This document shows positions 8,819 through 11,036 of a stretch of 14,142 nt of DNA, one piece after another (positions within the stretch are counted from its first letter, which is position 1; every line of letters begins with the position of its first letter). A program made the position numbers and the translations under genes. The notes beneath the pieces were generated by a model, which saw only the letters and a list, made by a program, of their open reading frames with translations, did not search any database and was not told the DNA's origin. Origin of the DNA: Candidatus Bathyarchaeota archaeon (GTDB lineage: Archaea; Thermoproteota; Bathyarchaeia; TCS64); NCBI GenBank assembly GCA_016934355.1, contig JAFGTA010000164.1, forward strand, positions 1 through 14,142, in the 5' to 3' direction.

Positions 8819-8894
8819 AGCCCGGTCGTCTAGCGGTCAAGGATCGGGGCCTCTGGAGCCTCTGACAAGAGTTCGAATCTCTTCCGGGCTACCA
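8819..8894 (+). tRNA. tRNA-Gln(CTG), CCA end encoded
   Basis: The sequence folds as a cloverleaf. The acceptor arms are AGCCCGG (8819-8825) and CCGGGCT (8884-8890), a 7-bp perfect stem with discriminator A at 8891 and genome-encoded CCA at 8892-8894. The D arm uses GTCT and GGAT. The anticodon stem GGGGC/GCCTC encloses loop CTCTGGA, which places CTG at positions 34-36 and so reads CAG codons. The T arm is AAGAG, TTCGAAT, CTCTT. The variable loop has 4 nt. There is no intron. The D arm resembles tRNA-Glu, but the anticodon is clearly CTG, not CTC. Confidence 0.95.
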
Positions 8895-8926
8895 TCCTCT
8901 TGGTAACAGTGGGCCGTAAGTTCACG

Positions 8927-8943: not shown

Positions 8944-9105
8944 TTACTTTTTTTTCGCTTTATCCGCTAAATAGCACCTCATCGCATCTTCAAGAGCTTC
9001 ACTTGCTTTACGTGTTGTGCCGTATTGAGGGTCGTCAAGGACGAAATGCATCCACTCATTCCAAAGCTCTTCGTCAATGTAGATCGATGTTTTCTTTTTA
9101 CCCAT
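8944..9105 (-). CDS. Small ribbon-helix-helix (CopG-like) DNA-binding protein
   Basis: This 53-residue frame (ATG at 9103-9105, TAA at 8944-8946) reads as an RHH regulator. KKTSIYIDEELW gives the beta-strand that inserts into the major groove and the start of helix 1. WNEWMHFVLDDPQYGTTRK continues helix 1 and the turn. ASEALEDAMRCYLADK forms helix 2, ending in a lysine tail. RHH proteins bind DNA as dimers on short inverted half-sites and usually regulate their own promoters. The divergent intergenic region with TACCG half-sites fits that role. There is no ribosome site, and a TATA-like TTTAAAAG about 30 bp upstream suggests a nearly leaderless mRNA. The target is inferred. It could also be the antitoxin-like half of a pair, but no toxin is recognisable beside it. 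Confidence 0.75.
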   Translation of the reverse strand: MGKKKTSIYIDEELWNEWMHFVLDDPQYGTTRKASEALEDAMRCYLADKAKKK

Positions 9106-9131
9106 TTCAGATAATTAATATACTTAACAAC

Positions 9132-9139
9132 TTTTAAAC
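9132..9139 (-). promoter_or_regulatory. TATA element of the RHH gene
   Basis: On the minus strand TTTAAAAG lies about 30 bp before the ATG at 9105, predicting transcription from near 9108-9112 and an mRNA with almost no leader. This agrees with the absence of a ribosome site. Confidence 0.5.
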
Positions 9140-9158
9140 ATCCCCTAATTATTCTTTA

Positions 9159-9203
9159 CGGTATATACCGCATAACTTAAATAATTGTACCGTATGCGGT
9201 ATA
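9159..9203. promoter_or_regulatory. Operator cluster: four TACCG half-sites in two inverted pairs
   Basis: A perfect 12-bp palindrome CGGTATATACCG lies at 9159-9170. A second inverted pair, TACCG-TATG-CGGTA, lies at 9188-9201. Their centres are 30 bp apart, about three helical turns, so both face the same side. In addition the 11-bp arms 9164-9174 and 9193-9203 are perfect inverted repeats of each other around an 18-nt AT-rich spacer that contains the TATA element of the plus-strand operon. The layout suits a dimeric repressor acting on both divergent promoters, and the neighbouring RHH protein is the obvious candidate. Confidence 0.65.
9174..9185 (+). promoter_or_regulatory. TATA element of the TIGR04076-membrane protein operon
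   Basis: AACTTAAATAATT lies in the spacer between the operator arms. Transcription would start about 25 bp downstream, near 9206-9210, which makes the GTG at 9215 a better start than the ATG at 9194. Confidence 0.5.
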
Positions 9204-9214
9204 ATCGATACCAA

Positions 9215-9535
9215 GTGAGCAGATCAAAGGTGAAGATAACGGTTCTCAAAAAGATCGACCCCTCAATCATATTCGATGGAGACATCCCCAAGATACATGG
9301 AACGGATAGAAAGTATGAGATATGCAAGGCTTTCGAGGAAGGTCAGGAGTTCACTGTCGAGATGAACGGCAATAGACCTGAAGGTTTCTGTGTTTGGGCT
9401 TGGAACGATCTCTTCAAAGACATTTCCATCCTCCATTTTGGTGGAAACTTTCCATGGGCGGAGGAAGGAAGTACAATAACTTGCTGTACAGACGGAGTCA
9501 GACCGGTCTCCTTCAAATTGGAGAGAATAAAATAA
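9215..9535 (+). CDS. TIGR04076-type small protein of unknown function
   Basis: The product (106 residues from GTG 9215) matches my knowledge of the TIGR04076 family of short bacterial and archaeal proteins. Visible features are the N-terminal KVKITVLKKI, EICKAFEEGQEF (compare the family CP-F--GQ-F), PEGFCVWAWNDLFKDI, the glycine-rich LHFGGNFPW, and the C-terminal ITCCTDGVRPVSFKLERI. The conserved cysteines (the ICKAF, GFC and CC positions) could bind metal or do redox work, but no function is established. The frame is open from TTG 9185. I prefer GTG 9215 because the likely transcription start lies after ATG 9194; GTG 9230 is also possible and matches the family start best. The gene is two bases from the next, so the pair is surely one operon. 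Confidence 0.8.
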   Translation: MSRSKVKITVLKKIDPSIIFDGDIPKIHGTDRKYEICKAFEEGQEFTVEMNGNRPEGFCVWAWNDLFKDISILHFGGNFPWAEEGSTITCCTDGVRPVSFKLERIK

Positions 9536-9537
9536 AA

Positions 9538-10212
9538 ATGAATAAACGTCAAACAACATGTTCATTCAAAATTGGAGATTTATCTAGTACAAGGTTAGTT
9601 GTGGCTGCGTTCGGTATCCTTTGTGGATTAACTGGGATAATCGCCGGATTCTTTGAGTTTGTTCAAGGTAGTCACACGCCAGATGGTCTAGTTATCAGTA
9701 CAATTGGATCAGGTTATACCATGTACGAGGATTTCACCTATTACGCAATCACTATAATTCCAAGCTTCAGAGTCACAGGCATATTATCCGTCACCATAAG
9801 CAGCATCGTCATTATATGGTCTGTGAAGTACATTCAAAGAAAGTATGGCGCACTGTTTTTTCTGGTTCTATCAGTTTTCCAGATGTTGGTTAGCGGTGGA
9901 TGGGTGATTGATCTTGCGATCATTACCAGTGTCTTGGCTTCAAGAATAGGAAAACCGATGAACTGGTGGCTGAGATATCTTCCTTCGAAGATTAGAATCT
10001 GGGTTGTAAGGCTTTTCCCTGTTTCACTTCTAGCCTATACTTCGATTTCCCTGAGTATGCTCTTATTAACAATCTTTGGCGTTAATGATGTTGGTCTGAT
10101 TCAACTCCTTGAGCCATTGGCGGTAGCAATGTTTATACCAATTTTTTTGATGATACTAGGTGGTTTTGCTTGTGACATACATAACGCTACTTGGAGACAT
10201 GAAATAAAGTGA
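9538..10212 (+). CDS. Uncharacterised multi-pass membrane protein
   Basis: A 224-residue protein with about five hydrophobic helices (near 19-43, 78-98, 103-135, 157-180 and 190-210). A loop at about 44-75 (QGSHTPDGL, SGYTMYEDFTYY) carries acidic and aromatic residues, and a basic stretch (RIGKPMNWWLRYLPSKIRIW) lies between helices 3 and 4. I do not recognise the family. The start ATG at 9538 lies two bases after the stop of the TIGR04076 gene, with GGAGAG about 12 nt upstream inside that gene. The frame is open further back to 9394, but that part overlaps the conserved end of the upstream gene. Membrane location is safe; transport, sensing or an enzyme role cannot be told apart. Confidence 0.75.
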   Translation: MNKRQTTCSFKIGDLSSTRLVVAAFGILCGLTGIIAGFFEFVQGSHTPDGLVISTIGSGYTMYEDFTYYAITIIPSFRVTGILSVTISSIVIIWSVKYIQRKYGALFFLVLSVFQMLVSGGWVIDLAIITSVLASRIGKPMNWWLRYLPSKIRIWVVRLFPVSLLAYTSISLSMLLLTIFGVNDVGLIQLLEPLAVAMFIPIFLMILGGFACDIHNATWRHEIK

Positions 10213-10247: not shown

Positions 10248-10967
10248 TCAGTTATCATCGAGAAAAGGGGCGATGTCGGGAGATGAAAGACCACGGTTAT
10301 CAGATAGTTCAGATAATATGTCCTTCAAATTCAACAGATTAGTTATTATTTTATCGGCTCCTGCTTGTCTCAGATTTTCTTCTGTTGTAGTGCTTGTTAA
10401 TGCTACCACATAACAGCCAGCAGTTTTACCAGCCTTAACCCCCGACACACTATCTTCGACATAAACCATGTGAGTAGGCTCAACACCCAGTTTCTCACAT
10501 GCAACAAAAATGATGTCAGGATTCGGCTTTCCTTCACTAACCAAATCCCTTGTCACAATACACGAAAAATACTTTGTCAAATCGAAATGTCTAGACTTAA
10601 AATTCCTAACTATCCCATCAACAACATCTCGATATGTATTAGTAATAATTGCACTTTTACTGGTCTGTAACGAAACGAAATCTAGAACCTCAATTACGTT
10701 ATCAACTATTTTAACATAGTCGAGAGAAGCTAGGAAATTGTTGATAAATCGTTTACGTGCCAGTTCTAGTTCAGGTTCTGTCAACTGGATGTGGGAGGAT
10801 ATTACTTTCTCCATGTCAACTCCAATGTGGTTTTCGAAAAAGAAAACCTTTGAAACACCTTCACTTTTTCCGAGTTGTTTTAATGTAAAATCTAATGCTT
10901 GACACCAAGCATCGTTGGTTTCAATTTACGTTCCATCAAGATCAAATGAAATGGCGTCAATCTTCAT
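10248..10967 (-). pseudogene. HAD-superfamily phosphatase interrupted by a nonsense codon
   Basis: The 240-codon frame from ATG 10965-10967 reads MKIDAISFDLDGT, then TAA at 10926-10928 (codon 14), then continues in the same frame without another stop to 10248. DLDGT is HAD motif I with nucleophile Asp9 and Asp11. Later motifs are intact: the motif II threonine in AIITNT, the motif III lysine in EGKPNPDI, and motif IV VYVEDSVSGVKAGK. The family is a beta-phosphoglucomutase/phosphoglycolate-phosphatase-like HAD with a helical cap. Internal ATG 10814 could give a 188-residue product, but it would lack the nucleophile and most of the cap. At this position a leucine (TTA or CTA) or valine codon is common, so one base change would explain the stop. 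A sequencing error is the main alternative. Confidence 0.8.
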
Positions 10968-11036
10968 AGAAAAACAGTACACGAGGCTAGAATAAAATCA
11001 TCGACTAAATTCTTGTTTTGATTTTGTTTCAGACGA

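Follow-up and report, generated by a model that had tools for sequence, protein, structure and literature searches.

The closest described systems are the archaeal virus regulators SvtR, from SIRV1, and AvtR, from an Acidianus lipothrixvirus, both of the ribbon-helix-helix (RHH) class. SvtR is described as a repressor of its own promoter and of a further viral gene, and it apparently acts by competing with the recruitment of TBP/TFB; putative sites have the form of imperfect inverted repeats, and the binding of RHH dimers to multiple sites is cooperative (PMC5569661). In another archaeal virus, a repeat over the BRE was taken as a likely repressor site (PMC11065993). The locus analysed here lies in a stretch of 14,142 bp of bathyarchaeal DNA, which as a whole we call the window, and it resembles SvtR and AvtR in that its predicted regulator is a small RHH-type protein. 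It differs from them in the absence of any sequence match, in its motif (TACCG, or the 8-mer CGGTATAA), in sites that directly flank a TATA-like box, and in its cargo, an operon of a TIGR04076 family protein and a membrane protein beside conserved chromosomal genes. CopG and the ORF56-type regulators of pRN1 are RHH autoregulators of about 50 aa carried on plasmids, that is, on mobile DNA. Single homologues of our protein match Pfam 56B_RHH below threshold (E ~0.06), whereas the window protein itself gives no match to this family, and neither a replication gene nor a mobile-element gene was recognised in the window. Archaeal mobile DNA is already known to carry autoregulated RHH repressors. 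The present RHH family and the TACCG motif look new, our literature search having found no description of the motif or of an RHH-TIGR04076 pairing, and the point of interest is the change of cargo. We consider it likely that the small RHH repressor and its TACCG operator make up a portable, probably autoregulated cassette of the mobile-element type, which here controls the TIGR04076-membrane operon.

The features of the locus, with their positions in the window, are as follows.
8819..8894, forward strand: tRNA-Gln (CTG), found by ARAGORN, at the edge between conserved synteny and a low-GC variable stretch
8944..9105, reverse strand: RHH-like protein of 53 aa, stop codon included in the coordinates, called from its motif with weak fold support
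9133..9138, reverse strand: TATA-like box (TTTAAA) for the RHH gene, at 28 nt from the RHH start codon
9159..9170, no strand: candidate operator I (CGGTA-TA-TACCG), on the upstream side of the rightward TATA-like box
9164..9174, forward strand: left 11-bp inverted arm, TATACCGCATA
9177..9184, forward strand: TATA-like TTAAATAA of the TIGR04076-membrane operon
9188..9201, no strand: candidate operator II (TACCG-TATG-CGGTA), following the TATA-like box and preceding the expected transcription start
9193..9203, forward strand: right 11-bp inverted arm, TATGCGGTATA
9197..9204, forward strand: 8-mer CGGTATAA, common to six of seven RHH upstream regions
9215..9535, forward strand: TIGR04076 family protein, 106 aa, GTG start, called from NCBIfam TIGR04076 (72.9 bits) and from homologue starts
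9538..10212, forward strand: membrane protein, 224 aa, called from its homologues and a helical model

The homologues of the TIGR04076 protein begin MxRSKVKITV, which favours the GTG at 9215, and the divergent region is therefore 9106-9214 (109 bp), as first delimited. TACCG matches lie at 9159-9163 and 9197-9201 on the reverse strand and at 9166-9170 and 9188-9192 on the forward strand. They form the two inverted pairs of the original prediction, with centres at 9164.5 and 9194.5 and thus a spacing of 30 bp. The 11-bp arms that had been described around the rightward TATA box are also present, since 9164-9174 and 9193-9203 are complementary at 11 of 11 positions, with 18 nt between them that enclose the TATA-like box. 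Dinucleotide shuffles of the 109-bp region gave a mean of 0.55 TACCG matches and never as many as the four observed (at least four in 0 of 2000), two such palindromic pairs in 1 of 2000, and an 11-bp arm in 0 of 300. Because some strand-merged 5-mer occurred four times within 60 bp in 228 of 300 shuffles of this AT-rich DNA, and because TACCG is not enriched across the whole window (20 matches against an expected mean of 17.95), it is the arrangement of the sites that is unusual and not their bare count.

The leftward gene very probably encodes an RHH protein. Its product has the N-terminus KKKTSIYID, and the segments TSI (6-8) and RKASEALEDAM (32-42) are invariant across 15 aligned RHH sequences. 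Among the strand residues, compared over 14 sequences, T6 and S7 are invariant, K3 is nearly so and position 5 is K or R; by analogy with CopG, we take T6, S7 and K3 to face the DNA. The AlphaFold monomer, of modest confidence (pLDDT 67.6, pTM 0.35), has helices at 12-24 and 34-52 and no assigned strand. A Foldseek search with this model returned nothing at E <= 0.001 and 12 matches at E <= 10, which include the RHH proteins PrpA and ParD2 at E 5-6, a level that is not significant. The class assignment of the original prediction draws on the motif and on this weak fold evidence. No RHH family of Pfam, NCBIfam or PHROGs matched the window protein, and a search of PDB sequences gave no credible match either. 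The databases hold 20 homologues that are 70-88% identical to the 53-aa protein, three of which (P0005, P0012 and P0013) carry an N-terminal MFK... extension that would fit ATGTTTAAA 12 codons before the start, the codons being inferred.

PrpA and ParD2 as fold neighbours, together with a weak match of 2 of 15 homologues to the VapB antitoxin (best E 0.065), would suit an RHH protein that acts like an antitoxin, regulating itself within a toxin-antitoxin type pair whose other member is the divergent or the downstream protein. We give this reading hardly any credence. The Foldseek values (E ~5) are not significant, and Pfam and NCBIfam assign neither the TIGR04076 protein nor the membrane protein to a toxin family. 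An RHH antitoxin of a type II system is co-transcribed with its toxin, whereas the present gene is transcribed away from the operon and has different partners at different loci. A protein of 53 aa would also leave little room for a toxin-binding tail.

In 256 genomes from the class and 398 from the phylum, six clearly related RHH loci were identified (E < 1e-12), L104 to L108 in the class search and L109 in the phylum search. Their RHH proteins are 39-48% identical to the window protein in the alignment, and the counts that follow cover these relatives, a set apart from the contigs of the 70-88% identical homologues. The half-sites expected beside related RHH genes are present at all six of these closest loci, with 3, 6, 1, 1, 4 and 3 occurrences of TACCG/CGGTA in the 150 bp directly upstream of RHH for L104 to L109. 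L106 and L107 have only one exact TACCG each. These 18 sites in 6 x 150 bp compare with a shuffle mean of 3.2 (at least 18 in 0 of 2000), all six loci were non-zero in 4 of 2000 shuffles, and CGGTA ranked first among all 5-mers upstream of the RHH genes. Among 28 more distant RHH-like loci, one site within 220 bp was counted in each of five and no site in the other 23; a few RHH-like matches had no locus to count, the start of L015 is uncertain and the upstream region of L032 is shorter. The 8-mer CGGTATAA is absent only from L109, which has CGGTATGA, and among 500 sets of shuffled regions two had an 8-mer common to five regions and none had one common to six. In the 237 kb of loci it has 18 copies, 10 of them upstream of these RHH genes.

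The 14-bp form of operator II also occurs in L104 and L105. Its general form, TACCG-N4-CGGTA, was found at 3 places in the five genomes of the loci, against 17 for the backward control. It is the sole copy in G167 and in G086 (assemblies of 1.4 and 2.5 Mb), each time upstream of the RHH gene, and the third place, in G306, is not at an RHH gene. The site geometry varies among loci between inverted pairs and 8-bp tandems, the latter in L105 and L108. The tandem TACCGTTNTACCGT has 9 matches in the 256 genomes against 18 for the backward control, and is thus rarer than its control; four of the nine fall at L105 and L108, and the other five have no RHH gene nearby. MetJ boxes are likewise spaced by 8 bp, and TACCGTTA is a pseudo-palindrome, so that the tandems resemble MetJ boxes in their spacing; the window itself differs in having inverted pairs and no tandem boxes. 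The six loci are not fully independent because L104 and L109 are related: upstream of their RHH genes 65 of 81 columns are alike, the operator included, and the divergent genes differ. In these two loci the TATA-like box with a site on either side may be part of the promoter of RHH itself.

The TACCG sites could also serve another regulator of the rightward operon, with the RHH gene a mere neighbour. Both window palindromes are indeed closer to the rightward promoter than to the RHH promoter, and in L002, a TIGR04076 locus with no RHH gene, the 400 bp ahead of the match contain three TACCG, all in one orientation, of which two are spaced by 18 bp. We regard this explanation as very unlikely, as TACCG accompanies the RHH gene in 6 of 6 loci and the palindrome is single-copy in two genomes, at the RHH gene. 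Two further TIGR04076 loci without RHH, L001 and L003, have no TACCG in 400 bp, and L002 lacks an inverted pair. That the RHH gene and the TACCG operator form a unit, the regulatory half of the earlier interpretation, is well supported.

The rightward operon begins with a clear member of the TIGR04076 family (72.9 bits against a curated cut-off of 33). The annotation given to one member of the family in a published study is a potential role in redox reactions or in the metabolism of iron clusters (PMC8667426). At E <= 0.001 the family has 14 and 23 matches in the Bathyarchaeota MAGs G002 and G003, the latter with adjacent copies, and one match in a third MAG. The membrane protein has 158 homologues at E <= 0.001, and several of the 120 matches listed, one of which is the window's own, are named Heimdall-, Hod-, Odin- or Promethearchaeota (Asgard). 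The 256 class genomes contain 13 matches to it in 11 genomes. Its model is helical (pLDDT 75.1), and a fold search with this model gave no match at E <= 0.001.

The original prediction had joined the three genes in one self-contained module. The membrane gene starts 2 bp past the TIGR04076 stop codon and the operon shares a divergent promoter region with the RHH gene, which is consistent with a dedicated system in which RHH, TIGR04076 and membrane proteins are functionally joined, for example as repressor, effector and sensor. The survey of partner genes, which covered contigs other than those of the closest homologues (RHH at 70-88% and TIGR04076 at up to 90% identity), argues against it. Ten TIGR04076 loci with flanks of up to ~5 kb, three of them from Bathyarchaeota and the closest 59% identical, contain neither an RHH gene of this family nor a homologue of the membrane protein, and four membrane-protein loci with flanks of ~5-6 kb contain neither this RHH nor TIGR04076.

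All six RHH loci have other partners. The RHH gene faces a divergent SWIM-DDE (IS240-type) transposase in L105 and L108, a divergent remnant similar to the tail of those transposases in L107 (E 2e-20, in two frames), and a divergent TnpB-like gene in L109. The divergent gene of L104 encodes 194 aa of no known identity, and a phage-type integrase (Phage_integrase) lies nearby. In L106 (left of 4961) the RHH gene faces a short divergent frame and, beyond it, a stretch that is open in a different frame, which together may represent a gene in decay. The RHH gene overlaps an N6_N4 methylase gene in L104 (3683-5160), above the Pfam cut-off, and a methylase-like gene in L107 (4679-6066), below that cut-off and with a weak PD-(D/E)XK-like neighbour (E 0.0018); these arrangements are possibly RHH-controlled restriction-modification systems. 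In L114 (4259-5538), from the close relative G249, a distant RHH-like gene (E 2.5e-6) lies upstream of a frame that appears PIN-like by eye, with a C-terminal fragment of TIGR04076 ~0.6 kb from the RHH-like gene.

Among the closest homologues, two pairs of TIGR04076 and RHH proteins have longest contigs of equal size, P0149/P0015 (1467 bp) and P0157/P0007 (1149 bp). For the 20 RHH and the 23 closest TIGR04076 homologues these two coincidences compare with a null mean of 0.10 (P 0.004), a value obtained with a cut chosen post hoc; over all 102 TIGR04076 homologues P is 0.07. Coincidences of the membrane protein are at chance both with RHH (1 against 0.32) and with TIGR04076 (2 against 1.7). A simple motif search, which returned only motif-bearing sequences, identified 13 TIGR04076 homologues in which six or more residues precede the conserved block. 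P0157 and P0159 begin MRYSG and MRYNG eight codons before the common start, which fits a half-site ATGCGGTAT ahead of it. In the window, MRYNRYQ is read in frame from seven codons ahead of the start. At the corresponding place P0154 and P0156 show no more than MR, and the distance of MRY differs in P0208. These observations are only suggestive of an RHH-TIGR04076 pairing among the closest homologues as well, and a dedicated trio appears unlikely to us. What remains of the proposed module is therefore the RHH/TACCG unit, with control of the rightward operon suggested by site position only; a conserved trio was not found at the loci surveyed. The TIGR04076-membrane operon is probably a local cargo and not an obligate partner, because elsewhere the cassette faces a transposase, a TnpB-like gene or other genes, or heads a methylase-like gene.

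The genomic setting is consistent with a portable cassette. The tRNA-Gln gene adjoins the RHH gene on its other side, on the opposite strand. The genes for TFB, DUF373 and UppS keep the same order in relatives, the TFB being up to 91% identical over its full length to relatives in the class of the Bathyarchaeota MAG G003, and the DUF373 protein 83, 81, 78 and 72% identical in the nearest of the 256 genomes (G249, G246, G247 and G243). The window thus comes from an archaeon related to that class, and the Asgard origin hinted at by the names of the membrane-protein homologues was rejected for these identities and the shared gene order. BLASTN alignments of 9 of 12 relative loci run over the tRNA-Gln gene and stop at 8892-8904, none passing 8904. 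The RHH, TIGR04076, membrane, HAD, cupin, luciferase-like and SDR genes gave no match at E <= 1e-3 in the 12 relative loci, whose contigs extend 7-10 kb past the tRNA-Gln in L095, L099 and L100; in L093 and L094 absence says little, because only 284 and 388 bp remain. At the tRNA-Gln gene the GC content falls from ~0.6 to ~0.4, stays at 0.35-0.44 to ~12 kb and is 0.44-0.52 thereafter. The break in synteny and the drop in GC therefore place the three genes in a variable, foreign-looking stretch beside a tRNA gene, which may be of horizontal origin.

Several observations concern the neighbourhood of this boundary. L093 and L094 have different DNA soon after the tRNA-Gln, and a 66-aa frame that ends beside it in L093, with no Pfam or PHROGs match, may resemble the end of an archaeal integrase. 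An RHH remnant in L093 was rejected, as a different frame of the same stretch is open. We also discarded an integrated element bounded by tRNA-Gln ends, since the tRNA 3' end (20-40 nt) has no good second copy in the window, and a viral origin, since viral contigs yielded no relative in three scans, one each for the RHH alignment, the TIGR04076 protein and the membrane protein. A HAD-like hydrolase frame at 10248-10970 on the reverse strand has an in-frame stop directly after DLDGT, leaving a 188-aa frame without the N-terminal motif.

Archaeal transcription starts ~25 nt downstream of the TATA box. In the mechanism that we propose, the RHH protein would dimerise and its dimers would bind the pseudo-palindromic TACCG boxes cooperatively. 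On operators I and II they would flank the rightward TATA box and block TBP, TFB and RNA polymerase, operator I lying upstream, by the position of the BRE, so that occupancy of both operators would exclude TBP/TFB. The TIGR04076-membrane operon would then remain off, and some signal that leads to titration, degradation or modification of the repressor would release it. Control of the rightward operon is a clearer prospect in the window than autorepression, because operator I lies past the RHH TATA-like box and begins 54 bp from the RHH start. As this box sits 20 bp outside operator I, autorepression would need spreading of the RHH protein along the DNA.

We tentatively suggest that ultra-small archaeal RHH repressors could move as repressor-operator cassettes that capture any divergent gene, be it a transposase, a TnpB-like gene or the TIGR04076-membrane operon. 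If so, a capture cassette would be a ready-made off switch for mobile cargo, built around the archaeal TATA box, and its near-exclusive sites would leave the host undisturbed. Bathyarchaeia are largely uncultured, and to our knowledge few regulator-operator pairs are known for them. The motif TACCG-N4-CGGTA / CGGTATAA now has a candidate binder, and if the proposed control is true, the motif could be used to find other mobile-element genes in Bathyarchaeia and would provide a first regulatory handle on the unexplained TIGR04076 family.
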